A stretch of DNA of 64,000 nucleotides from Maribacter algarum (ex Lu et al. 2025) (nom. illeg.). Its GTDB lineage: Bacteria; Bacteroidota; Bacteroidia; Flavobacteriales; Flavobacteriaceae. Numbering within the stretch: position 1 is the stretch's first letter; every line of letters begins with the position of its first letter. The stretch is from NCBI GenBank assembly GCA_947495915.1, contig CANMAW010000001.1, forward strand, positions 1,116,001 to 1,180,000, given 5' to 3'. The notes under the pieces were generated by a model. That model was given only the letters and a program-made list of their open reading frames with translations, did not search any database and had not been told where the DNA came from. Shown in pieces: positions 1,518-46,474 of this stretch. A program made the translations under genes and the position numbers.

Positions 1518-2825
1518 ATGAAAAGATTAAGCATACTAATAATGGTTTTGATTGGAGTGTATTCTTGTGATTTAGATGATGATGTGTCGTCTGAAAATTT
1601 ACAAACTTATATTGTCGCTACACCCATAAAAACAGATTTAATTACATTAAAGGCTGAGGCAATTGCTGTTACCGAACCAGTTGCAATAGAGAATTCGGGC
1701 AAAATTTATGCTTATAAGAATTACATCTTTGTTAATGATATAAATAGAGGTTTTCATATTCTGGATAATACCAATGCTGAAGCCCCAACTAATATTGGTT
1801 TTATCAAATTAGAGGGTAATAATGATATTTCTATTAAAGATGATCGTCTTTTTGCTGATAGTTATGGCGATTTGGTGGTAATGGATATCTCTGATATTAA
1901 TAATATTACCGAGGCCAACCGGATGGAAAATGCCATATATCAAGAATTTTGGTGTACAGTTGGTTTTGATGTTGAATGGCCAGAGGGGCAAATTGATGTT
2001 TATGACTACTCAGATTTTGATTATAATAAAGATGCCATTGTGGGTTGGGATGTAGCAGAGGTAAAATTGAGCGATGAGCAGTTCGAAGTGCAATTTGGCT
2101 ATAATCCTAATGCTAGAGATGTTACTGCTTTTGACAACGTAGCAGAAAATTCTGTACCTACGACTTCAACTACAGGTCAGGGTGGGTCATTTGCCCGTTT
2201 TAAAATCGTTGCCGACTATTTATATGCCGTTGAACCATGGAGCATTAATGTTTTTGATATTTCAGATTTAGATGCTCCCATTGTACTTGATGAGGTTTAT
2301 GCTAACGGTAATATTGAAACCATATTTAATCAAGGTGATATGTTGTTCTTAGGGGGTACTCAGGGTATGTACATTTATGATATTTCTGCTCCTGATAAAC
2401 CTACTTATGTTTCAGAATTTACACATGGTAGAGCTTGTGACCCTGTAGTTGTAAGTGGTGATTACGCATTCGTAACTTTAAGAAGTAATAATTTCTGTGG
2501 CGATGGTGTTGAAAGTGGCCTGTATATCGTTGATGTTTCAGATCTTTCTAACCCAACACTTTCTAAGACTTACCCTATGACTGAACCATACGGCTTAGGT
2601 GTAAAGGAAGAAAAACTTTTTATATGCGACGGCCCAGATGGCTTAAAAGTTTATGATAAATCAAATATTGATGATTTGGTGCAATTGAATCATTTTGAAG
2701 ATATTAATACCTATGATGTTATTCCGCTTGCTAATTCTTTATTAATGATAGGTGATAAGGTATTGTATCAATATGAATATTTAGATAATGAAATTCGTTT
2801 ATTGAGTGCGTACTCATTGAATTAA
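1518..2825 (+). CDS. LVIVD-repeat (beta-propeller-like) lipoprotein
   Basis: Secreted lipoprotein of 435 residues. I chose the ATG at 1518 rather than the upstream in-frame ATG at 1458, because it starts a clean lipoprotein signal (MKRLSILIMVLIGVYSC) and the extra 20 residues look like leader translation. The mature protein is built of repeats of the LVIVD type, seen as IYAYKNYIFVND, LVVMDISDINN, INVFDISDLDAP, MYIYDISAPDKP and LYIVDVSDLSNP, which are expected to form a beta-propeller on the cell surface or periplasmic face. No catalytic motif is visible and the ligand is unknown. Its 3' end overlaps the convergent response regulator gene by 4 bp. Confidence 0.85.
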   Translation: MKRLSILIMVLIGVYSCDLDDDVSSENLQTYIVATPIKTDLITLKAEAIAVTEPVAIENSGKIYAYKNYIFVNDINRGFHILDNTNAEAPTNIGFIKLEGNNDISIKDDRLFADSYGDLVVMDISDINNITEANRMENAIYQEFWCTVGFDVEWPEGQIDVYDYSDFDYNKDAIVGWDVAEVKLSDEQFEVQFGYNPNARDVTAFDNVAENSVPTTSTTGQGGSFARFKIVADYLYAVEPWSINVFDISDLDAPIVLDEVYANGNIETIFNQGDMLFLGGTQGMYIYDISAPDKPTYVSEFTHGRACDPVVVSGDYAFVTLRSNNFCGDGVESGLYIVDVSDLSNPTLSKTYPMTEPYGLGVKEEKLFICDGPDGLKVYDKSNIDDLVQLNHFEDINTYDVIPLANSLLMIGDKVLYQYEYLDNEIRLLSAYSLN

Positions 2826-3250
2826 GCGGTTTTCATAAAACCGGTAGCTACAATTTTTTGATATTTTTCAAAAACTTGTTCCATATCAATAGGTTTTATA
2901 AGGTAGTCGTGAATGTTTTCATTTTCTTTTGCTTTCTGAATATCATCAATGTTAGAAGAAGAGGAAGCCATTATCAATACCGCATTCTGACGAAATTTTA
3001 GTGGTAGTTGGTCGTACACTTCCATGAATTCCCAACCGTTCATAATGGGCATGTTGATATCTAACAAGATTAAGTTAGGAGGACATTGCCCATTATCATT
3101 TAATTCGTTTAAATGGTCAATCGCCTGTTTTCCATTAATTTTGATTGTTGTTTGAATATTTGAATTGATGCGTTTAATTGAAAATTCATATACAAAGGTT
3201 ACCGCACTATCATCATCAATTAAAAGAATGTTTTCTATGGAGGTTTTCAT
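2822..3250 (-). CDS. single-domain response regulator (CheY-like)
   Basis: A stand-alone receiver domain of 142 residues with no output domain. The acidic pocket is in LLIDDDS (residues 9-15), the phosphoacceptor Asp is in ILLDINMP, the switch Ser/Thr in MASSSS, and the conserved Lys in LIKPID. It begins 2 bp after the stop of the upstream PAS histidine kinase, so the two are almost certainly co-transcribed and form a phosphorelay pair. Single-domain regulators of this kind act through protein-protein contacts or as phosphorelay intermediates; the target cannot be read here. Confidence 0.9.
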   Translation of the reverse strand: MKTSIENILLIDDDSAVTFVYEFSIKRINSNIQTTIKINGKQAIDHLNELNDNGQCPPNLILLDINMPIMNGWEFMEVYDQLPLKFRQNAVLIMASSSSNIDDIQKAKENENIHDYLIKPIDMEQVFEKYQKIVATGFMKTA

Positions 3251-3252
3251 AA

Positions 3253-4308
3253 CTATGTTTTTTTTATTTTAAACGTAAAGCAACTGCCTTGTCCTAATTT
3301 AGAATCAACAGTAAGTTCACCATCATGCATTTCAATAATTTTTCTGCAGTGAGCAAGGCCAATACCAGTACCAGGATATTCTGACTTATCGTTTAGTGAA
3401 ACAAAAACATCAAAAATTCTTTCCTGATCTTCTTCGGCAATTCCTATTCCGTTGTCTCTAAAAGAGAAAACATGGAATTGGTTTTCGTTTAAATAATTAA
3501 CTTTTATGTGTGGTGTCGTGTTTTTCTGAGTATATTTTATTCCGTTAGAAATTAAGTTTTGTACTAAAAGACGAAATTCTGTTTGGTAGCCTAAAATTAC
3601 CGGAAGATCACCATATTCGATAATCGCATGGGTGTCTTCAATGGTTTTTCTTAAGTCTTGGGTAACTTCTAGCATGATTAAATTGCAGTCAACTTTTTCT
3701 AACTCCTTTTCGGTATTTAATTTGCTGTAATCTAATAATGCATCGATCAAATTGCTCATTCTATTGGTCGATTGATCAATGTATTTTAGTACTTGTTTTG
3801 TGTGTTCGTCGATAGCATCATTTTGCTGTCTATCAAGTAACTTGGTTAAGCTTAATATTGTTTTTAATGGTTCTTGTAAATCATGTGATGCTATTCGTGT
3901 AAATTGTTCAAGTTGTTTGTTTTTTAGTTCTAACTTTTGAATGTATTCTCTTTTAGTTAAGTCACGTACAATAGCAATGAAAAAGGGCTCTCTTTTTCCT
4001 TCTATTGGTGCTAAACTTACATCAACCGGAAATGTAGTGTCATCTTTACGTTTACCTAAGAGTCCGGTTCTATTGCTCATATTCATTTTTACCGGACATT
4101 GCGCATAGGTATTGGTGTATTCTTTATGCTTTTCGTGTAATTTTTTAGGAATTAAGGTGTTTATAGGCAAGCCAATTAACTCATCTTTATGATACCCAAA
4201 AGAGTTATGGGCAATTTCATTGGCATACCTTATGGTTGTTTGTGTATCGGTTAAAATAACCCCGTTTGGAAACAAATCAATAAACTCACGAAGCGCCTTG
4301 TCATTCAT
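3253..4308 (-). CDS. PAS-domain sensor histidine kinase
   Basis: Soluble histidine kinase of 351 residues with no transmembrane segment or signal peptide. A PAS domain covers about residues 5-125 (GVILTDTQTTIRYAN, FGYHKDELIG, RKDDTTFPVDVS). The dimerisation/phosphoacceptor helix follows with ASHDLQEPLKTI, then a HATPase domain with the N box LISNGIKYT, G1 box DNGIGIAEED and G2 box GTGIGLAHC. A cytoplasmic cue is therefore likely (redox, small ligand or light, as with other PAS kinases); no cofactor residue is diagnostic. It is the first gene of a two-gene unit with the receiver protein directly downstream. Confidence 0.92.
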   Translation of the reverse strand: MNDKALREFIDLFPNGVILTDTQTTIRYANEIAHNSFGYHKDELIGLPINTLIPKKLHEKHKEYTNTYAQCPVKMNMSNRTGLLGKRKDDTTFPVDVSLAPIEGKREPFFIAIVRDLTKREYIQKLELKNKQLEQFTRIASHDLQEPLKTILSLTKLLDRQQNDAIDEHTKQVLKYIDQSTNRMSNLIDALLDYSKLNTEKELEKVDCNLIMLEVTQDLRKTIEDTHAIIEYGDLPVILGYQTEFRLLVQNLISNGIKYTQKNTTPHIKVNYLNENQFHVFSFRDNGIGIAEEDQERIFDVFVSLNDKSEYPGTGIGLAHCRKIIEMHDGELTVDSKLGQGSCFTFKIKKT

Positions 4309-4483
4309 ATGTAAGAAAATACTTACAATTTTAACGAAATAACCGAAATTTTAGTATTTATACACTACTTCTTTTTTTAATTACTTCAAGTTTTTATTTG
4401 TGATGATAAAAGTTTTTACCCCGAATTGTATTTCTTCTTTTGTGATTCCGAAATTGAAATTCATAGAAATTAAAAAATTCAAC

Positions 4484-4491
4484 TACTTTTG
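4484..4491 (+). promoter_or_regulatory. putative -7 element of the topA promoter
   Basis: TACTTTTG matches the Bacteroidota sigma-A -7 consensus TAnnTTTG and lies 20 bp before the topA start codon. No good TTTG -33 partner is seen at the usual spacing, so the assignment is tentative. Confidence 0.4.
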
Positions 4492-4510
4492 TTGCTGTAA
4501 AAACGAATGA

Positions 4511-7018
4511 ATGGCTAAGAATTTAGTAATAGTAGAGTCGCCTGCAAAGGCTAAGACAATAGAGAAGTTTTTAGGGAAAGATTTTAAAGTAGAGTCTAGT
4601 TTTGGGCATATCGCTGATTTACCATCTAAAGAGTTGGGTGTAGATGTTGATAATGATTTTCAACCAAAATATATAGTAGATTCTGATAAAAAGGCGCTGG
4701 TAAAAAAACTAAAAGATCTTGCTAAAAAGGCTGAAATGATCTGGCTAGCAAGTGATGAGGATCGAGAGGGAGAAGCTATTTCATGGCATTTGGCTGAAAC
4801 TTTGGGTTTAGATAAAAATAAAACTAAACGTATTGTTTTTAATTCAATAACCAAATCAGCTATTCAAAAAGCAATTGAGAACCCACGAGAAATAAATTAC
4901 AACCTAGTTAATGCACAGCAAGCAAGAAGAGTATTAGACCGTTTGGTTGGGTATCAATTATCTCCGGTATTATGGAAAAAAATTAAACCAGGTCTTTCCG
5001 CAGGTCGTGTGCAATCTGTTGCTGTTCGCTTAATCGTAGAGCGTGAACGTGATATAGAAAAATTTACTCCTGAAGCATCTTTTAAAATATCTGCACAGTT
5101 CAAAACAGCAGAAGGCAATGTCTTTACGGCAAAATTGAATAAAACATTTTCTTCGAAAAATGAAGCAGAAGCATTTTTGAAAAAGAATATCAGCGCTGAT
5201 TTTGAAGTAGGTGCCTTAGATAAAAAGCCAGCTAAAAAATCTCCTTCAGCACCATTTACCACATCAACTTTGCAGCAAGAGGCGTCTCGTAAACTTTATT
5301 TTTCAGTAGGTAGAACTATGCAAGTTGCGCAACGTTTGTATGAAGCTGGTTTGATTACCTATATGAGAACAGATAGTGTTAATTTGTCAAATGAAGCGAT
5401 TAACGCAGCTAAAGATGCTATTGTTCAAAATTACGGAGAGAATTATAGCAATGTTCGAAATTTTAAAGGGAAGTCAAAAGGTGCCCAAGAGGCCCATGAA
5501 GCCATTCGACCCACCGACATGACGCGACAGTCGCCTGCGTTAGAACGTGACCAAAGCAAATTGTACGAATTGATTTGGAAACGTACGATTGCTTCGCAAA
5601 TGAGTGATGCACAATTAGAGCGTACCAACGTGAAAATTAAAACTGACTCACATAGCGAGCTATTCTCTGCAAACGGAGAGGTGATTAAGTTTGATGGCTT
5701 TTTGAAAGTATATTTAGAGGGCTTAGATGATGAAGACTCTGCAGAAGAACAAGAAGGAATGCTACCTGCAATGAGTGTTGGTGAAACTGTTCTAAATAAT
5801 TACATTACGGCAACAGAGCGATTTACAAGACCGCCATATCGATTCACTGAAGCTTCCCTAGTTAAAAAATTAGAGGAGTTGGGCATTGGAAGACCATCAA
5901 CATATGCTCCTACAATTTCTACCATATTAAATAGAGGCTATGTTGAAAAAGGTACTATAGAGGGTAGTGAACGCTCATATGTTCAGTTAATCTTAGAGGC
6001 AAATGCCTTAAATGAAAAGAAATTAACTGAAATGGTTGGCTCAGATAAAGGTAAGATGGTGCCCACTGATATTGGTATGATTGTGAATGACTTTTTGGTG
6101 AGTAATTTTTCAAATATTTTAGATTATAATTTTACCGCTAAAGTTGAGGAAGATTTTGATGAAATAGCTGAAGGCCAAGAAGATTGGCAAAAAGTAATGA
6201 AATCGTTCTATAAAGATTTTCACCCTACAGTTTTAGATGTAGAGGCTAATGCAGATAGAGCAAGTGGTGAGCGTATTTTAGGAGAAGATCCAAAAACTGG
6301 CAAACGCGTTTCTGTTAGATTAGGTCGTTTTGGTCCTATGGTTCAAATAGGTACCGTTGATGATGAAGAAAAACCAACTTTTGCAAGTTTACTACCTGAT
6401 CAATCTTTAAATACTATTACGTTTGACGAGGCCATGGAGCTTTTTAAACTTCCTAGAAAATTAGGGGTTTATAAAGGTGAAGAGGTTTTAGCTAATATAG
6501 GTCGTTTTGGACCCTATGTTAAGTTTGGTGATAAGTTTATCTCTATGGATAAAGGTGAAAATGCTTTTGAAATAGAAATGGATCGTGCCATTGAGTTAAT
6601 AATCGCAAAAGAAAAAGCCGATGCGCCTATTGCTCAATATGAAGGCAAAGATGTTACAAAAGGCACAGGTCGTTTTGGTCCTTTTATTAAGTGGGATGGT
6701 ATGTTTATTAACGTCAATAAGAAATATGATTTCGATAATTTAACCACCGCTAATATTGAAGAATTAATCGAAATCAAGAAACAGAAAGAAATTGATAAGC
6801 TAATTCAAGAATGGCCAGAAGAAGGTATTCGTATTGAAAAAGCAAGATGGGGAAGGCATAATATAATAAAGGGTAAGATAAAAGTTGAAATAGCTAAAAC
6901 GGTTGACGCTACAAAAGTTTCTTTGGAAGAAGCAAAAAAGCTAATCGAAAAGAAAACACCTAAGAAAAAAGCAAAAGCTAAAGCTAAACCCAAAGCAAAA
7001 CCAAAAGCTAAAAAATAA
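4511..7018 (+). CDS. topA: DNA topoisomerase I (type IA)
   Basis: Relaxes negatively supercoiled DNA through a transient 5'-phosphotyrosine link. The Toprim domain at the N-terminus shows the catalytic Glu9 (IVESPAKAK) and the SDEDREGE acidic motif (residues 81-88). The active-site Tyr284 lies in LITYMRTDS. The C-terminal half has no CxxC zinc fingers. It carries GRFGP-type repeats instead (LGRFGPMVQIG, IGRFGPYVKFG, TGRFGPFIKWD) and ends in a very basic Lys/Ala/Pro tail of about 25 residues. The total of 835 residues is normal for Bacteroidota. The arginase-fold gene follows after 28 bp and is probably co-transcribed. Confidence 0.97.
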   Translation: MAKNLVIVESPAKAKTIEKFLGKDFKVESSFGHIADLPSKELGVDVDNDFQPKYIVDSDKKALVKKLKDLAKKAEMIWLASDEDREGEAISWHLAETLGLDKNKTKRIVFNSITKSAIQKAIENPREINYNLVNAQQARRVLDRLVGYQLSPVLWKKIKPGLSAGRVQSVAVRLIVERERDIEKFTPEASFKISAQFKTAEGNVFTAKLNKTFSSKNEAEAFLKKNISADFEVGALDKKPAKKSPSAPFTTSTLQQEASRKLYFSVGRTMQVAQRLYEAGLITYMRTDSVNLSNEAINAAKDAIVQNYGENYSNVRNFKGKSKGAQEAHEAIRPTDMTRQSPALERDQSKLYELIWKRTIASQMSDAQLERTNVKIKTDSHSELFSANGEVIKFDGFLKVYLEGLDDEDSAEEQEGMLPAMSVGETVLNNYITATERFTRPPYRFTEASLVKKLEELGIGRPSTYAPTISTILNRGYVEKGTIEGSERSYVQLILEANALNEKKLTEMVGSDKGKMVPTDIGMIVNDFLVSNFSNILDYNFTAKVEEDFDEIAEGQEDWQKVMKSFYKDFHPTVLDVEANADRASGERILGEDPKTGKRVSVRLGRFGPMVQIGTVDDEEKPTFASLLPDQSLNTITFDEAMELFKLPRKLGVYKGEEVLANIGRFGPYVKFGDKFISMDKGENAFEIEMDRAIELIIAKEKADAPIAQYEGKDVTKGTGRFGPFIKWDGMFINVNKKYDFDNLTTANIEELIEIKKQKEIDKLIQEWPEEGIRIEKARWGRHNIIKGKIKVEIAKTVDATKVSLEEAKKLIEKKTPKKKAKAKAKPKAKPKAKK

Positions 7019-7046
7019 TTAAGCTCTAAAATTCTTCATAAAATCT

Positions 7047-8204
7047 ATGGCATTTGATTTTCTTGTTCCCGTTGCAGATAAAGTTTTAGCCCATACAGAA
7101 CTGCTTCCTGAACAGGCATTAGGTAAAAAAATTCATAAACATACAGACCGTGAGGGTTTACCCGTTTTAGCTTTTGCTTCAGTTGCTATTGTAGGTGTTC
7201 GCGAATCACGTAATGCTTTTGAAAAAAAGATCGATAAACTCGATACTTCATCTATTCGTATTGAACTCTATAAGTTGATGATGGGTAACTGGAATTCTAC
7301 CATTGTTGATATGGGCGATATTGAAGAAGGTAACACCGTAGAAGATACTTACTTTGTTGTAAAAGAAATTGTTGCAGGCCTACTAGAAGAAAAAATAATA
7401 CCAATAATAATAGGTGCCACTCAAGATATTACCTATGCTGCCTATCGTGCTTTTGATGGTATTATAGATATGATAAATCTTGTTGCTGTAGATAGTAGGT
7501 TTGATTTCGGAATGGAAGATGAATTGATATCATCTAATTCATATATGAGTAAGATTATTACTGATAAGCCAAATAATTTATTTAATTTTTCTAATATAGG
7601 CTATCAAAGTTATTTCAATGCTCAAGAAGAAATTGATTTAATGGAGCGACTTTTTTTTGATGCGTACCGTTTAGGTGATTTAATTTCTGATATTAAGTTA
7701 GCAGAGCCAACTTTGAGAAATGCACATATGGTCAGCTTAGATGCCAGGGCAATTCGCGCAGCAGAAATGGCGTACAATAATGGTTTTTCTCCTAACGGTT
7801 TCACGGGTAGAGAAATATGTGCAATTGCAAGATACGCTGGTCTTAGTGATAATGTTAGTGTATTTGGTATCTATGAGATGGAAAACTCAAACCAGTCGAG
7901 TCAATTAATGGCACAGATAATATGGTATTTCATAGAAGGTTTTAATTTTAGAGTAAAAGAATCTCCGTATATCAAACCCGATGAATTTACAAAGTATACA
8001 GTACCAACAGAATTAGAACAATTAATATTTTACAAGAGTCATTTAACCCAACGTTGGTGGATTGAAGTGCCATCGATATTTTCTACAGATACTAAACTTC
8101 ATTCAGCATCGTTATTACCATGCACCGAAAAGGACTATTTAGACGCATGTGAACAGAACATTCCTGAACGGTGGTTTAAAGCCTACAAGAAAGGCCTTAA
8201 CTAA
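7047..8204 (+). CDS. arginase/formimidoylglutamase-fold protein with degenerate metal site
   Basis: The 385-residue protein has the overall pattern of the ureohydrolase (arginase/agmatinase/formimidoylglutamase) family. The manganese ligands are not conserved. The GGDHS-type motif reads GATQD (residues 123-127), so the ligand His is Gln. The DAHxD-type motif reads DSRFD (149-153), so the bridging His is Arg. The SxDxD-type motif reads SLDAR (230-234), so one Asp is Arg. Three of six ligands are therefore missing, and amidino hydrolysis looks unlikely. It sits between topA and gldK. Automated annotation would call it formimidoylglutamase; I infer a non-enzymatic or altered role, perhaps linked to the gliding/secretion cluster. 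Confidence 0.75.
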   Translation: MAFDFLVPVADKVLAHTELLPEQALGKKIHKHTDREGLPVLAFASVAIVGVRESRNAFEKKIDKLDTSSIRIELYKLMMGNWNSTIVDMGDIEEGNTVEDTYFVVKEIVAGLLEEKIIPIIIGATQDITYAAYRAFDGIIDMINLVAVDSRFDFGMEDELISSNSYMSKIITDKPNNLFNFSNIGYQSYFNAQEEIDLMERLFFDAYRLGDLISDIKLAEPTLRNAHMVSLDARAIRAAEMAYNNGFSPNGFTGREICAIARYAGLSDNVSVFGIYEMENSNQSSQLMAQIIWYFIEGFNFRVKESPYIKPDEFTKYTVPTELEQLIFYKSHLTQRWWIEVPSIFSTDTKLHSASLLPCTEKDYLDACEQNIPERWFKAYKKGLN

Positions 8205-37578: not shown

Positions 37579-38154
37579 ATGAGAGTACGAACCAAACGGG
37601 AAGAATTTTTACAAGTCTCATTGCAATTAATTCACGAAAAAGGATTCAAAGCAACCACCATGCGTGATATTGCTGAGCGTATGGACTTTGATGTATCGAA
37701 CAGTTACAATTATATCAAGTCAAAACAAGATATTTTAGAGTTGTTTTTGTTTCGTACTTCTGAAGAATTTCACACCACTATGGATCATATTCTGGACTCT
37801 AGTTATCCGGCTGATGAAAAACTAAAGCAGGTGATCTCCGCCCATATTCAAGTAGCGGCACGTAAACCTCTTGAAGTTGCTTTGATGGTGAATGAATGGC
37901 GTAATTTAAAAGAACCCAAGTACAGCGAATATGTAGCACTTCGCTCGCTTTACGAAAAGAAAATGGCCAAATTACTTCGTGAGGGTGTAAAAAGTGGCGT
38001 TTTTGCCGCTTTGAATGTGAAAATTGCTACCGCAGTGATCTTATCAAGTATTCGTTGGGTGTATGATGCTTATGCTGATACCAAAAGCAACATCAATCCG
38101 ATTGAGTTAGAACGGCAAATCGTCAGTTTGGTATTCGATGGTGTATCTCACTAA
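37579..38154 (+). CDS. TetR family transcriptional regulator
   Basis: The 191-residue protein has an N-terminal TetR helix-turn-helix (FLQVSLQLIHEKGFKATTMRDIAERMDFDVSNSYNYIKSKQDIL split over residues about 10-55) and a C-terminal ligand-binding half resembling TetR_C domains of AcrR/FadR-like regulators. Divergent from hmgA with a 141-bp shared promoter region holding a CACTAC/GTAGTG palindrome, so it probably controls the aromatic catabolic operon. Confidence 0.9.
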   Translation: MRVRTKREEFLQVSLQLIHEKGFKATTMRDIAERMDFDVSNSYNYIKSKQDILELFLFRTSEEFHTTMDHILDSSYPADEKLKQVISAHIQVAARKPLEVALMVNEWRNLKEPKYSEYVALRSLYEKKMAKLLREGVKSGVFAALNVKIATAVILSSIRWVYDAYADTKSNINPIELERQIVSLVFDGVSH

Positions 38155-39430: not shown

Positions 39431-41650
39431 CTATAGATTTAATTCTGTTATAAATTCACCAATTATTTTTAAATCTGTCAATTCTTCATCTTTTAATTCT
39501 ATGGGGTAAAATGAAGAGTCAAAAGATAGAGGTTTTAGAACAATTGATTTATGTGACCAACTATTTTCAGATATATTTTTTTCACTATGATATTCCTTGA
39601 TAGTATAACCTGCACCAAAATCAGAATCTTGAATATTGTAATGTTGTGCTAAAACAATTTTTCCTTCTCGTGTGCCTCCAGAATATTTTTTAAAAAGACA
39701 CCAAGAGCCATTTTCTATTTTTTTATTCATTGATTCACCAATAATTTGACATACAAAATAATCTTCTCTTGCAGATATGTTAATTGGTAATTCTACCCAT
39801 TCATAATTCTCATATTCAGATTGAATTTGTAAATCACTAAAGTCACCAGCTGCAGCATAGATGTTAAATATTGGAACTGCATTTACATAAGGTTTAACAT
39901 CTGTAAATGGTAATAATCTTAGTCTGCTTTCAGATTTATAAGTCGAAATATGTTCTTTAAAATATTCACGTAAATCTTTGTCACAAGCATAAATGTAAAC
40001 ACCTTTAATGCCTCTAAACATTATTGTTTTGTAAATATTTATTATGTAATCTTTTAATTCTTCGATATTCTTTAAACCTCTTTTTCCATTTTTATCAAAA
40101 TACTTTGATTTATCAATTTCAATTTGTTGGGTTACTTTATTAAACGAGATTTCTTCTCCGAAAATAACTCCTGTATAGTTCAGGTCATATCCCTGTGTTG
40201 TATGTATACACCCAACTTGGTTGAAAGAGTCTTCTGAATTTATCCAGTCTTTATCTGTTTTATTCCATTGTAATTCAACACCATCAATTGCTATATCAAC
40301 TGCATTAAGGTCTGGGTTTGGCTTTTTCTTTGGGTCTGATAGCCAAGGCCAAGAATAACCGGCAATTAGTCTACATAATCCATATTTTTCTTCTTGGATA
40401 GATAATTGTTCATACATATCTTTCATAGAGTCAAAGACAACAACATCATAATTATCAGGACTATAAAAATTCTTGTTCTCACGTTTAACATTTAACAAGT
40501 CATCTACGAATGTGATATAGTCATTTCCTCCATTAGAACGCATTTGTGATTTAAGTTCTATTTCTATTGTGTCGGGTTCGCTTAATAATTTATCAAAATG
40601 AGATGAAGGAATATCCGAAGGTTTAACAGATTGTGCTGAATCGTAAAAAAATATCTGATTCTTACTATTTGCAATTATCCAATCTAACTCAGTTCCCGTA
40701 TCGTCAATTCCAAGTTTTCTGTTGTTCTTTTTAAAAACCCCCATCCATCCAATATTTTTATATTGTCTTAATCGATGAGCTTCATCAACAATTAGTAAAT
40801 CATATCCTTTCTTGAAAGTGTCTGATGGACTAATTATCATTGATGATTTTAATTCTGGTATTTTTCTAAATACATTTTGTAAAGTCTTTCGTAAAGAACT
40901 CATTGCGACAACAAATCCGATTTCTGCTTTTGGGTATTTTATTTTATATGCTCGTATTAGGTTAATTTCTTGAATTTCATTATCATTAAAATCATCCATA
41001 TTAGTGTCAGAAACATCAGAACCAAGTAACTTAATTAAATATGTGGCAAGAATTGTTTTTCCTGTACCTGCACTACCTTTAATAAAGATTTTGCTGGATT
41101 TCTTTTCAGTTAGAGCTTCAATAATTTCTAAAACGGAATTGTATTGGTCTTCGTTAAGTGATTTATATGGAGAGTATTTGAATAGTTCAGAATTTTCTAT
41201 TTCTTCTAGAGATTTACTGACAATCTTTTTTTCAATCAGTTTTCCCCAAATATCTATAAATAGGTTTTTATATAAGTCTTGCTGGTAATAATTATGGTTG
41301 ATTAATCCGTGATTTCCGTTTTGTAATTCATAAGTACCTTCCGAAGAAAGGTATTGGATTAATTTTGACTCGATATCAAGGGTGGCAGATTTGTTGAATT
41401 TATCTGAACCAATAATCGATATTTTATTGAATGCATTACTTTTTTTAGGGTTTGCTAAATGATTTTTAATACGATTCGAAAAATTCGTTGATTCACCAAC
41501 ATAAGCAATACGTTTACCTTCGTTTTGTATAAAGTAAACTAAAGGCCATTGATTTTTCACCCAAGGATTTTCATTTATTTTTTCTAATGATTTTTTATTA
41601 AAATCATATTTTTCAGAGACTTCTACTGATAATTCATAGGATGAATTCAT
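39431..41650 (-). CDS. GIY-YIG nuclease / DUF2075 SF1 helicase / S24 peptidase fusion
   Basis: 739 residues, three domains. (1) GIY-YIG nuclease, about 36-100: LVYFI, AYVGESTNFSNRIKNHL, with a Glu in DIESKLIQYL as metal ligand. (2) DUF2075 superfamily 1 helicase, about 160-575: Walker A GSAGTGKT (192-199), Walker B DLLIVDEAHR (284-293), FFYDSAQ (335-340), QMRSNG (369-374), HTTQGYDLNY (483-492) and a degenerate arginine-finger motif FRGIKGVYIYACD. (3) S24/LexA-like peptidase, about 590-720: A601-G602 in IYAAAGDFSD resembles a LexA self-cleavage bond, Ser640 lies in IGESMNKKI and Lys685 in YTIKEY. Its start overlaps the MazG stop by 4 bp, so it is translationally coupled. AT-rich, with a relic HsdR nearby. 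I infer a mobile-element defence protein that may be released by self-cleavage. Confidence 0.88.
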   Translation of the reverse strand: MNSSYELSVEVSEKYDFNKKSLEKINENPWVKNQWPLVYFIQNEGKRIAYVGESTNFSNRIKNHLANPKKSNAFNKISIIGSDKFNKSATLDIESKLIQYLSSEGTYELQNGNHGLINHNYYQQDLYKNLFIDIWGKLIEKKIVSKSLEEIENSELFKYSPYKSLNEDQYNSVLEIIEALTEKKSSKIFIKGSAGTGKTILATYLIKLLGSDVSDTNMDDFNDNEIQEINLIRAYKIKYPKAEIGFVVAMSSLRKTLQNVFRKIPELKSSMIISPSDTFKKGYDLLIVDEAHRLRQYKNIGWMGVFKKNNRKLGIDDTGTELDWIIANSKNQIFFYDSAQSVKPSDIPSSHFDKLLSEPDTIEIELKSQMRSNGGNDYITFVDDLLNVKRENKNFYSPDNYDVVVFDSMKDMYEQLSIQEEKYGLCRLIAGYSWPWLSDPKKKPNPDLNAVDIAIDGVELQWNKTDKDWINSEDSFNQVGCIHTTQGYDLNYTGVIFGEEISFNKVTQQIEIDKSKYFDKNGKRGLKNIEELKDYIINIYKTIMFRGIKGVYIYACDKDLREYFKEHISTYKSESRLRLLPFTDVKPYVNAVPIFNIYAAAGDFSDLQIQSEYENYEWVELPINISAREDYFVCQIIGESMNKKIENGSWCLFKKYSGGTREGKIVLAQHYNIQDSDFGAGYTIKEYHSEKNISENSWSHKSIVLKPLSFDSSFYPIELKDEELTDLKIIGEFITELNL

Positions 41651-41976
41651 AAGTCATGATACTTTTTAGCTGTTCCTTTTGCTTTATAAATTGGGTATTT
41701 TTCTCCGTTACTTTTTATTTTATCAAGAACTATTTGTTTTACATCAAAGTCATATTTGTCTGCAAGTAAAAAGGCATAGGCAAAAACGTCAGCTAATTCT
41801 TCTTTTACTTTTTCAATTTTTGCGTCTTCAGATTTTTTCCACAAGAATTCTTCAAGTAATTCACTTGATTCGATATTTATTGCTAAAGCCAAGTCTTTTG
41901 GATTATGGAATTGTTCCCAATCACGTTCATTTCTAAACTCAATTAACTTATCGGTTATTATCTTTATGTCACTCAT
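41647..41976 (-). CDS. MazG-like nucleotide pyrophosphohydrolase
   Basis: All-alpha NTP pyrophosphatase of 109 residues. The metal-binding pattern ExxE...ExxD is complete: Glu39-Glu42/Glu43 in SSELLEEF and Glu60-Asp63 in KEELADVF. EQFHNPKDLALAINIE is the usual N-terminal helix of the short MazG-like (RS21-C6/dCTPase) group. The family hydrolyses (d)NTPs or alarmones. The stop codon overlaps the start of the nuclease-helicase fusion (ATGA), so the two are one operon. In defence contexts such enzymes deplete nucleotides or clear signals; that role is inferred here. Confidence 0.92.
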   Translation of the reverse strand: MSDIKIITDKLIEFRNERDWEQFHNPKDLALAINIESSELLEEFLWKKSEDAKIEKVKEELADVFAYAFLLADKYDFDVKQIVLDKIKSNGEKYPIYKAKGTAKKYHDL

Positions 41977-42513: not shown

Positions 42514-42732
42514 TTAATTATTTTGTAGAAATATAAGTTTGCTTATTTGTCTGTTGTCATAGGGTTCTTCTAACTGTTCAAAATCAATTAAAATGCTAGA
42601 CAATTTTTCCGACAATATACACAACTTTGATAGCGTGGTACTTGGGTCTGAAAGGCAATTACGTTCGGCTAGTATGGCCAATTGATAAAGCACAGAGTAA
42701 TTATCTTTTAAAAAACTAAAATTGGTCTTCAT
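42514..42732 (-). pseudogene. hsdR: N-terminal stub of a type I restriction HsdR (DUF4145)
   Basis: A 72-residue frame starting MKTNFSFLKDNYSVLYQLAIL and continuing LAERNCLSDPSTTLSKLCILSEKL. This closely resembles the first residues of type I restriction R subunits with an N-terminal DUF4145 domain, where SNFxFL, AERxLxxDPxTxLxKLRxxxE and EEPYDNxQ are typical. Real HsdR proteins are around 1000 residues; here the frame stops after 72, and no helicase, hsdM or hsdS sequence follows. It is a remnant rather than a gene. It may alternatively be expressed as a small DUF4145 protein. Confidence 0.7.
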
Positions 42733-43457: not shown

Positions 43458-44390
43458 TCAAGGATTGATAAAATCTTCGATAACTTTTTCAACACTAGAG
43501 GCCAAATCTGCATTTTGAATCTTAAATTTTTGAATACCCATTTCGTGAAACCAATTTGTCCAGTATGCTCGCATGACATCGATAGAATAAGGGTTTTTTG
43601 GGTTTAAACTTTCAATGCCTATGACTAAAACCTCTAAATCAGCTAAATTTTCATTTGCTTTTATAAAACCATATTGATTATCAATAAGTGTTGTTTTCCA
43701 ATTTGAATTTGATAATGGTAGTCGATTTAAAGATTTTGGCGTTAGATAAGAGCTTAGTTTACCTTCATTCATCTGACTATTTTCATGGTACATATAACCA
43801 TCAGTTAGAATTACCAATATATTTCTATGACAATCGCTAATGGTGTAATCTTTTACATTGTCTTTGAAAAATCGCCAAATATCAGAACCTGGAAAATCTT
43901 TGGGTTTTTTAGAGTCTGCTTTTGCTAAATCATATAAAGTACTGGGTTGACTTGCATATAACTTTTCCGTTAACGCGATATCGGCTTTCGGACTTTCTTT
44001 TGTAAACTCAATATGTAATTTTTCAGCAATAGTATTGATGGTGTCATTGGCCGGTTCTGGGTTGAAATACAATTGCATTTTATCTTGCAATAAGATTAGC
44101 TTCTTAGTTTTGATATGAGATAAAAAAGCTCGTGAAATGCTTTGGAGATTTTCTAAATCTTTTTGAATCGTTTTCGGTCGAGTTATTCTATCAGATAAAT
44201 CAAGAAATATACTGACATTTAAATTGTTCTTTTTGTTCTCTAAAATATAGCTAGGGCAATCGCCCTTAGATTGTTTTTTTAAAGCCTTGGAAACTTCCTT
44301 CTCAAGAGCAGCATCGGCCTTCTTGGAATTACACGAACTGAGCCCTATAGTTAATATGGTGATTATAAATAATTGAAATAAATTTTTCAT
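43458..44390 (-). CDS. VWA-like lipoprotein
   Basis: Lipoprotein of 310 residues (lipobox in ILTIGLSSC). It has the beginning and middle of a von Willebrand factor A-like fold: VSIFLDLSDRITRP carries a DxS half of a MIDAS motif (DLSDR in place of DxSxS) and NILVILTDGYMYHE carries the TDG element. Metal binding may be altered. It begins 2 bp after the stop of the coiled-coil membrane protein, so coupled expression is expected. It probably acts as an extracytoplasmic adaptor. Family not recognised beyond VWA-like. Confidence 0.7.
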   Translation of the reverse strand: MKNLFQLFIITILTIGLSSCNSKKADAALEKEVSKALKKQSKGDCPSYILENKKNNLNVSIFLDLSDRITRPKTIQKDLENLQSISRAFLSHIKTKKLILLQDKMQLYFNPEPANDTINTIAEKLHIEFTKESPKADIALTEKLYASQPSTLYDLAKADSKKPKDFPGSDIWRFFKDNVKDYTISDCHRNILVILTDGYMYHENSQMNEGKLSSYLTPKSLNRLPLSNSNWKTTLIDNQYGFIKANENLADLEVLVIGIESLNPKNPYSIDVMRAYWTNWFHEMGIQKFKIQNADLASSVEKVIEDFINP

Positions 44391-44392
44391 TT

Positions 44393-45658
44393 TTATAATG
44401 TTTTGGTGTACACTTTGTTTTGGTAGTCATCAGTATCTAAATCAAGTTTTGTGATATGTTTATCATATACCTGTCTACATTCATTGAGATAATTTTTTGT
44501 TTGCTCGAGACCTAAGACAATTTCTGAAGTAATTACCTCTTGCCAACCTTGTAGGTATTCAGAAGAAAGTGCCTTGTAATTACGAATAGGCAGTATGAAG
44601 CCTTCGATAATATTTTCAAGTTCTGTACAACGATGTCTATAATCTCGAATATCATTTTCTATTTCGAGAATTGATTCTTTATGAAGGTGAGTAAGTTGAA
44701 TTTGATTGTTGATATCGCTTTTTAAGGAAAAGACATAATTTTCGATTTTATCTCTATCTGCATGCTCTTTCATGACAATGTCAAAAACTAAACCCCAGAT
44801 AATATAAGAGACGAAACCTGCAAAAATGATTACCCAAAAACTGGGACTAGAAAATGCTACCGAAATTGAAAATTCAGGATCTTCAAAGGTTTTATTTAGG
44901 TTATAAAGTTTCTCATCAATTAGGTAGGCTAATAGTGCATCAAAAATAAAGGTGGTAATGAAAAGCAGGATCACTTTGAATATGTTTCCTATGCTCTTTT
45001 TGTGTGTAAAAATGTGTATTAAATAGCCGAGTCCGAAAAAAACAAAAGGAATAAAAATTATGAATCCTAATTCTAAAGGTCCTGCATCATAAGCTTCTTG
45101 CAAAGCTTGAGGGTAGAACATTCCACCGAACAATTCAGTCGATGGGTCAAATGTTCTGAAAAATGCTGAAAATGATGTAGAAATATAAAAGATGAATATA
45201 TAGACTGTAAGGAAGCAAAGTAAGAATAAACCAATCCAAAATTTTGAAGTAGACCTTCTTTCAACAGAAATTCCGAAATCTTGGGGGTTTCTCCTAACAT
45301 TGACAATGTCACTTTTGAGTTTGCTAATTTTAGAATCCGTTTCTAATAGCCTTTCCTTTTCCCTTTTAAGTTCTTCATCTTTGTTTAGCATTAAGGTTTT
45401 TATTCCTTTCAATTCTGTTACGTAAGGTTGTTTAAGTTTAATCTGTTCAGCATCTTCACGTTTGCATTTGTTTTCAAATTTGTGATAGATTGCATCTAAA
45501 CTTGCTTGTAAGTTTTCAGATCTTCCTTGGCAGGTTTTTGAAGATGCAACGCCATCTTCGTAATATGTTTTACGTTCCTCTTCGAATGAAGTTATATGCT
45601 CTTGAACATCTTCTTTTTTGTTAGATTTTATTTTGGCAATACTTTTTAAAAGTCCCAT
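44393..45658 (-). CDS. coiled-coil multi-pass membrane protein
   Basis: No named family is recognised in this 421-residue protein. The N-terminal 130 residues are a long coiled coil (HKFENKCKREDAEQIKL, NKDEELKREKERLLETDSKI). Four hydrophobic helices follow at about residues 141-163, 196-219, 228-250 and 274-296 (FWIGLFLLCFLTVYIFIF, LGFIIFIPFVFFGLGYLI, VILLFITTFIFDALLAYL, FWVIIFAGFVSYIIWGLV). The C-terminal 110 residues are a second coiled coil. The layout suggests a membrane scaffold exposing coiled coils to the cytoplasm. It sits 5 bp after the TerB-like gene. Confidence 0.75.
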   Translation of the reverse strand: MGLLKSIAKIKSNKKEDVQEHITSFEEERKTYYEDGVASSKTCQGRSENLQASLDAIYHKFENKCKREDAEQIKLKQPYVTELKGIKTLMLNKDEELKREKERLLETDSKISKLKSDIVNVRRNPQDFGISVERRSTSKFWIGLFLLCFLTVYIFIFYISTSFSAFFRTFDPSTELFGGMFYPQALQEAYDAGPLELGFIIFIPFVFFGLGYLIHIFTHKKSIGNIFKVILLFITTFIFDALLAYLIDEKLYNLNKTFEDPEFSISVAFSSPSFWVIIFAGFVSYIIWGLVFDIVMKEHADRDKIENYVFSLKSDINNQIQLTHLHKESILEIENDIRDYRHRCTELENIIEGFILPIRNYKALSSEYLQGWQEVITSEIVLGLEQTKNYLNECRQVYDKHITKLDLDTDDYQNKVYTKTL

Positions 45659-45663
45659 TTTGT

Positions 45664-46065
45664 TTAATTAAGTTCTTGTAATATGTCTTCTTTACTTTTA
45701 CCAAGCTTAGCGCTTTCAATTAGGTAATCTGTCAGTGGAATTATTTTCTCTTCTATAAATTCAAATTTTTTACAATACTTTTTTAAGGTGGTATACTCAT
45801 CATCAGTTACAATGCCATCGGCCCAAATCATTAGTGCAAAATCATATAGGTATTCAATTCTTTTCTCTAAACTTTCAGGTATAGTTATTGGACCAGAATG
45901 AGATATTAAAATCTCATCCAACTGTTTTTCTGAAATATTTCTTTCGTTGGCGAATTGATAAAGTAGTTTCATTTCTAAAGGACTGAATTCTTCGTCTGCC
46001 AAAGCGATTTGATACAGCCTCAAAAAGTGACTTTTAATTTCTTCGGAGATAATGTTTTCTTCCAT
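45664..46065 (-). CDS. TerB-like tellurite-resistance-domain protein
   Basis: The start at 46065 (MEENIISEEIKSHFLRLYQIAL) is favoured over a 26-residue extension overlapping the upstream gene. The 133-residue protein is a helical TerB-like domain with the two acidic helix-loop motifs of the family, ALADEEFSPLEMKLL and MIWADGIVTDDEYTTL, which can hold a metal. TerB-type domains are common in stress and phage-response operons next to VWA and membrane proteins. It heads the part of the operon containing the coiled-coil, VWA-like and SH3 genes. Confidence 0.8.
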   Translation of the reverse strand: MEENIISEEIKSHFLRLYQIALADEEFSPLEMKLLYQFANERNISEKQLDEILISHSGPITIPESLEKRIEYLYDFALMIWADGIVTDDEYTTLKKYCKKFEFIEEKIIPLTDYLIESAKLGKSKEDILQELN

Positions 46066-46087
46066 ATTATTAGTGTTTGTTAAATGA

Positions 46088-46474
46088 TTAATATTTTCGA
46101 TCTCTCCCGTATTTTTTGTTTTTTTTTGGTCCAGAATTTGCATAAGGGATATAGCTTTTATTTTTTTTCTTGCTTAATGTGCTTGCTAAAAACATAAGAG
46201 CACATATAATATCGACTGGTATCCATAATGATTTTTGAAAAAGATGAATCGCTGCTAAGGGGTTGAATAAGTAGGCGATTAGCGTAAATGAGCAAACTAG
46301 AAATGGTTCATTAAAGTTTTTACTTGCCATTATAATGGCACCTATACATATGCAAACACGTAAGAATTTGTAAAAAACTAATGGCAATGGAAAAACGGAA
46401 ATTATTAGAAGAAGGAAACAGATAATTGCTATGCAGCTATATAAGTTATTCTGAAAAATAAATTTCTTGGTCAT
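46088..46474 (-). CDS. DUF6804-like small membrane protein
   Basis: The 128-residue membrane protein (start at 46474, MTKKFIFQNNLYSCIAII) has four hydrophobic helices: IAIICFLLLIISVFPLPLVFY, RVCICIGAIIMA, FLVCSFTLIAYLFNPL and WIPVDIICALMFLAS. It ends in a basic tail (KKNKSYIPYANSGPKKNKK). FNPLAAIHLFQKSLWIPVD is a pattern typical of small DUF6804-type proteins. It is 22 bp upstream of the terB-like start and is the first gene of the five-gene operon. Confidence 0.65.
   Translation of the reverse strand: MTKKFIFQNNLYSCIAIICFLLLIISVFPLPLVFYKFLRVCICIGAIIMASKNFNEPFLVCSFTLIAYLFNPLAAIHLFQKSLWIPVDIICALMFLASTLSKKKNKSYIPYANSGPKKNKKYGRDRKY

Follow-up and report, generated by a model that had tools for sequence, protein, structure and literature searches.

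Most of what is known about how restriction motors avoid cutting a cell's own DNA when it is damaged or replicating comes from EcoKI-like systems; in the excerpted text of PMC11109961, EcoKI alleviation is described as the destruction of HsdR by ClpXP. For LexA, excerpts of Kovacic et al. (PMC3834820) describe RecA*-linked self-cleavage at Ala84-Gly85 involving Ser119 and Lys156, with both fragments degraded. GIY-YIG nucleases have precedents in type IV restriction, namely CMoRE, an enzyme for 5-hydroxymethylcytosine (5hmC; extracts of PMC12923530), and the EVE–GIY-YIG fusions (extracts of PMC7641849). SauUSI-type PLD-helicase-DUF3427 enzymes are a further type IV group (PADLOC mREase_IV; extracts of PMC3874153). 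Here we describe a gene pair in a 64,000-nucleotide stretch of the Maribacter algarum (ex Lu et al. 2025) (nom. illeg.) genome (GCA_947495915.1, contig CANMAW010000001.1, forward-strand positions 1,116,001 to 1,180,000; hereafter the window), in which a MazG-like gene is coupled to a gene for a large protein that joins a GIY-YIG nuclease, a DUF2075 helicase and an S24 tail. Plausibly, though we hold the reading tentatively, this cassette is a two-gene restriction-like defence system in which RecA-triggered self-cleavage of the tail would remove the nuclease-helicase while MazG would clean odd deoxynucleoside triphosphates (dNTPs).

Architecture and conserved residues of the gene pair

The pair consists of two minus-strand open reading frames (ORFs), laid out as follows (residue numbers are those of the large protein):

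41647-41976, minus strand: MazG-like nucleotide pyrophosphohydrolase, 109 aa, first gene of the pair (PF12643, 68.1 bits)
39431-41650, minus strand: GIY-YIG nuclease / SLFN-g3 (DUF2075) helicase / S24 tail protein, 739 aa, overlapping the MazG gene by 4 nucleotides
41348-41542, minus strand: GIY-YIG nuclease domain, residues 37-101 (PF01541, 29.7 bits)
39980-41089, minus strand: superfamily 1 (SF1)-like helicase domain SLFN-g3/DUF2075, residues 188-557 (PF09848, 214.6 bits)
39434-39883, minus strand: S24 (LexA/CI/UmuD-type) C-terminal tail, residues 590-739 (Pfam Peptidase_S24 match at 599-689)
39845-39850, minus strand: predicted scissile bond Ala601-Gly602, from residue conservation and a weak profile alignment with E. 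coli LexA
39731-39733, minus strand: predicted nucleophile Ser640
39596-39598, minus strand: predicted general base Lys685

An earlier note, made from the letters of this DNA alone, had described a translationally coupled pair with exactly these domain calls. The ORF coordinates and Pfam matches agree on both points, so the sequence had been read correctly. The Peptidase_S24 score of the large protein (23.5 bits) lies just above the cut-off, and the second MazG family, PF03819, scores 19.4 bits against a cut-off of 22 and thus falls below it. GC content drops to 0.29-0.30 at the pair, although other blocks of the window also read only 0.31-0.33.

Conservation was assessed in alignments of 86 large-protein rows and of 90 MazG rows, the latter including a few loci twice. 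In all 86 large-protein rows the GIY-YIG residues Arg60 and Glu94, presumably catalytic by analogy with I-TevI, are invariant, as are the helicase Walker A stretch (A194-K198) and D289-E290; Walker A and B of the PF09848 domain are both present. In MazG, E60 and D63 are invariant over the 90 rows, and E36 and E39 are each present in 89; we take these four to be metal-binding. By family match and this E, E, E, D set the small protein is a predicted MazG-like pyrophosphohydrolase, and the large one qualifies by the same kind of evidence as a GIY-YIG nuclease with an SLFN group 3/DUF2075 helicase.

Residues and fold of the S24 tail

Tail residues were counted in 84 of the 86 rows, L012 and L027 being tail-less; these rows form 54 clusters at 80% identity, with one locus counted twice (L010 and L086). 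Ser640, Lys685 and Ala601 are invariant in all 84; at position 602, 82 rows have Gly and two (L021, L054) have Ser. The Gly-to-Ser spacing is 35 residues in 69 tails and 36-39 in the other 15, and the Ser-to-Lys spacing is 45 throughout. In a 55-row tail alignment 21 of 150 well-filled columns are invariant, which puts the chance of three residues named beforehand all falling in such columns at about 0.003, assuming independent rows.

In the structure model the tail shows a LexA/CI-type S24 fold, and in a weak profile alignment the ...VAAGE of E. coli LexA falls on Ala601-Gly602. The S24 assignment, the Ser-Lys dyad and the Ala-Gly bond proposed in the earlier note are thus supported by Pfam, model and conservation together; by sequence and modelled fold, the large protein would belong to the S24 family, with its Ala-Gly bond upstream of the Ser. 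The tail is nevertheless not obligatory: L012 and L027 carry the same MazG and GIY-YIG/DUF2075 pair without it, the L012 reading frame (562 aa) meeting a stop codon at the point where the tail would start and L027 being 90% identical to the window protein over residues 1-578, yet tail-less.

The tail as a module on several restriction motors

Nor is the tail peculiar to the MazG pair, for it proved to be a portable module that also sits on three other restriction-motor classes (types I, III and IV). A tail-only search gave matches in 18 of 395 Bacteroidota genomes. The carriers were ten GIY-YIG/DUF2075 proteins, all behind MazG and one broken in two, five PLD-helicase-DUF3427 proteins, two HsdR-like proteins and one contig-end fragment. 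Against PADLOC mREase_IV, a profile that ends before the tail, two of the type IV carriers reach 788 bits (L104) and 815 bits (L137); in the strong DUF3427 subfamily (nine matches at E 1e-60 or better) five members are tailed, three are tail-less (975, 984 and 988 aa) and one is a fragment. Both HsdR carriers (L145, L146) share an operon with HsdS and with HsdM, which scores 875 and 858 bits. A PtuA (Septu) ATPase gene is inserted between hsdS and the S24-tailed hsdR (L145, 11258-12487; L146, 4069-6019), and in L146 a gene scored as PtuB stands there as well.

The sole viral-contig match of the tail search, on an IMG/VR contig (L183), is a type III Res that follows Mod and has Ala-Thr at the scissile position; at 1622-7553 of this contig, Mod and the tailed Res are followed by a 352-aa Fic-like protein, named by eye. 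Among plasmid records only a 1.83-Mb Halomonas record carries the tail. Four phage records matched it, with CI-like or helix-turn-helix (HTH) repressors at the match (L214 and L215 inspected).

In a tree of 70 tails, those of type IV cluster together (100/98), those of types I and III cluster with the fragment (100/99), and a further split (98/96) separates the motor tails from two phage CI-like repressors. The class label switches four times, the least possible; long branches occur, and support is wanting at 31 of the 67 inner branches. Together with the spread over classes, the tree indicates an S24 lineage that is carried by restriction motors, has moved between classes a few times and is sometimes absent. 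Such sharing points to a damage switch that DNA-cutting defences may have in common as a built-in part.

Distribution of the pair and its genomic setting

Of 299 genomes of the family, 15 contain a match to the large protein (E 1e-20), in many cases a partial one, so that presence is patchy. Six genomes, that of the window included, hold the full-length tailed protein (L006-L011), one holds the tail-less L012 and one a contig-start piece (L013/L110); four matches cover the tail only (L014-L017), and three (L018-L020) cover the helicase part only, yet lie behind a MazG gene. L018/L111, the only one of these three scanned, gave no GIY-YIG or S24 match. MazG genes precede such helicase-only DUF2075 matches at L111 9131-10981, L112 8240-10102 and L113 8776-10665, and L111 also matches PDC-S41 (60.5 bits) and Nhi (37.4 bits).

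Relatives were taken as the best 80 of 150 from a contig scan, a ranking that favours proteins with the whole architecture. In 79 of these 80 the large gene is preceded by a MazG gene with the same orientation, which supports the conservation of the pair that the earlier note had set as a check; the remaining locus (L100) starts 56 nucleotides from its contig end. The junction is a 4-nucleotide overlap in 64 loci, and 13 others overlap by 1-14 nucleotides or abut; gaps of 109 and 615 nucleotides occur in L079 and L029. Judged by record titles, most hosts belong to the Bacteroidota; Halomonas/Vreelandella (L083, L085) and single bins of Gammaproteobacteria (L074) and Neomarinimicrobiota (L080) also occur. 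The family includes an 800-aa member about 60 residues longer than the window protein (L136, 6112-8511) and one broken into two open frames (L133, 6796-8979). No plasmid record covers 80% of the large protein (best 79%, the Halomonas record), one scan of viral contigs found no relative of the full protein, and six phage records match it in part only. A search of the PDB with the large protein sequence alone gave no match.

The nearest gene on each side of 53 non-redundant loci from the best 80 (101 genes) was compared with 91 control genes from 13 of 20 regions, test and control genomes mostly differing. At E 1e-8 the neighbours match 196 PADLOC families and the control 44; at 1e-40 the figures are 47 and 3. 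The comparison counts families, not genes, and gives a trend, not a formal statistic. The neighbour matches listed include mREase_IV (two genes), SoFic, DndC, PDC-S01, S05, S13, S26, S41, M65A and type II methyltransferases. The three control families below 1e-40 are RtcR-like regulators, and the control matches listed are mostly P-type ATPase models, with one match each to mad3, PDC-M72A and DpdF. Some neighbour matches are generic (RmrA with tetratricopeptide repeat (TPR) proteins, capP with ImmA/IrrE). The neighbours of relatives are nonetheless richer in defence families than the control, a clear trend.

The defence-island setting proposed in the earlier note is supported for the relatives, but the window itself has only weak defence matches around the pair: among the ten proteins scanned there, the sole defence-like neighbour is a weak HsdR N-terminal scrap, apart from a weak PDC-S48 match (20.9 bits) and weak TPR matches. 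The scrap is the following feature:

42514-42732, minus strand: 72-aa N-terminal fragment of a type I-like restriction subunit, possibly a relic (PADLOC PDC-M16A, 28 bits; REase_I, 18.5 bits)

These poor flanks would suit a repair or nucleotide-hygiene operon in which MazG acts as a sanitiser and an SLFN-like helicase-nuclease works at damaged forks; MazG and NUDIX enzymes are classical pool cleaners, and SLFN11 is among the structural matches. We consider such an operon very improbable in view of the patchy presence (partial matches included), the defence-rich neighbours of the relatives and a tail common to restriction–modification subunits. By these sequence comparisons the cassette probably acts against phage.

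Four same-genus genomes (L179, L180, L181, L182) yielded no clean empty site; in L179, L181 and L182, with about 17 kb read beyond, synteny breaks after a TetR gene at 38154, and L180 stops at its contig end. Within the own genome, a DUF2075 paralogue (L108, 9267-11228) was rejected as a second copy, the ORFs of its 20-kb stretch giving no MazG or S24 match. A three-gene cassette at 43458-46143 of the window (proteins of 310, 421 and 159 aa, the last with a sub-threshold TerB match) has counterparts close to the pair in L021 (at 61-70% identity) and to the contig-start piece in L110 (38-59%). It is possibly a system that travels with the pair.

Nucleotide-hydrolase partners

Ten tailed type IV loci were read together with their flanking DNA (L069, L088, L104-L107, L137, L138, L143, L144; L137 and L138 are 99% identical), and each has a NUDIX gene directly upstream. 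The NUDIX and type IV match ends overlap by about 5-8 nucleotides in nine of the ten, L088 being frame-broken; the L137 NUDIX protein scores 67.2 bits against Pfam NUDIX and 156.2 bits against PADLOC PDC-S07. In four of the best 80 loci the NUDIX–type IV pair stands beside the MazG pair, with a tail-less type IV protein in L043 and L044 and a tailed one in L069 and L088. Two pyrophosphohydrolase families are thus coupled to two nuclease motors with one common tail.

Because of this parallel and the GIY-YIG type IV precedents CMoRE and the EVE–GIY-YIG fusions, we speculate by analogy that MazG hydrolyses dNTPs, modified or damaged, which if left intact would label host DNA as a target of the nuclease. 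More broadly, it is possible rather than probable that a portable LexA/CI-type self-cleaving domain on at least four motor classes (GIY-YIG/DUF2075, PLD/DUF3427 type IV, HsdR type I and Res type III) makes restriction RecA-responsive without transcription, and that in two classes MazG or NUDIX prevents the modified bases under attack from entering host DNA, the two together forming a new general brake on autoimmunity.

Proposed mechanism

In the proposed model the large protein would be a DNA-cutting motor, a GIY-YIG nuclease with an SF1-like helicase, that bears a LexA/CI-type S24 tail. Damage would raise RecA filaments on single-stranded DNA, upon which the tail would cut its own Ala601-Gly602 bond and part the nuclease-helicase from the S24 domain. 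The predicted new C-terminus is ...IYAAA here and mostly AAA or VAA across the aligned set. The N-terminal product end of LexA and ssrA tags are ClpXP signals, and ...IYAAA resembles them; the genome encodes RecA, ClpX and a transfer-messenger RNA (tmRNA) tag, GDNNYALAA. ClpXP degradation and loss of the motor would then be a likelier outcome than activation and would amount to built-in restriction alleviation that spares the host chromosome, as the LexA-like cleavage, the AAA end and the EcoKI/ClpXP precedent jointly lead us to infer. The coupled MazG would hydrolyse odd nucleoside triphosphates, so that bases targeted by the nuclease stay out of host DNA.

The same anatomy and residues would also fit the opposite polarity, in which the intact tail keeps the nuclease-helicase off and a RecA-triggered cut upon phage attack releases a nuclease that kills the cell (abortive infection). 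CI-like repressors, which the tail's phage relatives are, release a stored programme once cleaved. We judge such damage-gated activation a serious but less likely alternative: both the DUF2075 set and the type IV family include tail-less homologues, so the tail seems dispensable for the motors; waiting for the SOS response would make an enzyme of type I, III or IV come late; and the cleaved AAA end resembles a degradation signal.

Several points weigh against RecA-triggered removal of the motor. Similarity of the tail to LexA is weak in sequence, the AAA terminus is a weak sequence argument for a degron, and, as already noted, L012 and L027 exist without a tail. Plasmid-induced EcoKI alleviation in E. 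coli persists in a lexA1 mutant (excerpted text of PMC11109961), so that the analogy covers the outcome, not the pathway. A PF00717 search of the genome gave two S24 proteins only, the large protein and one XRE-type HTH protein; since neither is a LexA-type repressor, a LexA-run SOS circuit would be hypothetical here, though RecA is present. The second protein (L114, 4617-5405, 263 aa) has an XRE-type HTH and an S24 domain with AAAG, GDSM and a Lys, and from these motifs is a possible damage-responsive repressor. Finally, with Ser at position 602 in two tails and Ala-Thr in the type III tail, cleavage there may be slow or dead.

The lack of a LexA-type repressor among the S24 proteins and these replacements of Gly602 would also fit a tail that is not a RecA switch, either cleaving itself constitutively as maturation or serving uncleaved in dimerisation or DNA contact. 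Such a tail seems quite improbable to us, as the invariant dyad and Ala and the near-invariant Gly, over 54 clusters and on other restriction classes, argue for catalysis.

Comparison with known systems

The earlier note called the system a candidate undescribed one, and undescribed it is as far as the libraries searched here go. Among the matches listed, the open-access PubMed Central literature describes no S24 tail on a restriction motor and no MazG–DUF2075 pair, and 'DUF2075' and 'MazG' co-occur in no open-access paper there. S24 and LexA are absent from the main texts of PMC10853773, PMC12839542, PMC12458937, PMC7159879, PMC3874153 and PMC7641849. At E 0.01 the MazG protein has no PADLOC match, so no PADLOC-named two-gene system has both genes matched. 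Single matches are weak or partial, and none spans GIY-YIG, helicase and S24: the helicase part matches AbiO (47.2 bits; best stretch 255-375 of 468 positions, hence not full-length) and the candidate PDC-S41 (20.6 bits), and the nuclease part matches PDC-S14 (37.5 bits). Nhi has no match in the large protein at E 0.01 (PADLOC), though the homologue L136 matches it at 37.8 bits; the DUF2075 protein of L111, with its PDC-S41 match, likewise stands behind a MazG gene.

Closest in plan are the SauUSI-type enzymes, which share a nuclease and motor in one chain, upstream coupling to a small nucleotide hydrolase (NUDIX in their case, MazG in ours) and an optional S24 tail. They differ in having PLD, a DEAD/ResIII motor and DUF3427 in place of GIY-YIG and the SLFN-g3 motor; with no PLD or DUF3427 Pfam match at E 0.01, the large protein is not a SauUSI/mREase_IV member. 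CMoRE likewise places GIY-YIG in modification-dependent defence, but is a single component with a sensing domain, and its excerpted text mentions no helicase, MazG or S24. LexA, lambda CI and UmuD share the fold, the Ser-Lys dyad and the Ala-Gly bond, but carry S24 on a DNA-binding or polymerase-accessory part, whereas here it sits on a nuclease-helicase and cleavage is predicted. EcoKI resembles the model in the proteolytic removal of a restriction motor that spares the host; in the excerpted account ClpXP takes the translocating HsdR, whereas a built-in self-cleaving tail is proposed here.

If true, a self-cleaving tail common to several classes of restriction enzyme would amount to a second solution, built in, to the problem of self-cutting, and the repeated coupling of pyrophosphohydrolase and motor would give a concrete prediction of what these nucleases attack. 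Set against the known systems, the parts are of known kinds, and it is their combination and the sharing of the tail that look new.
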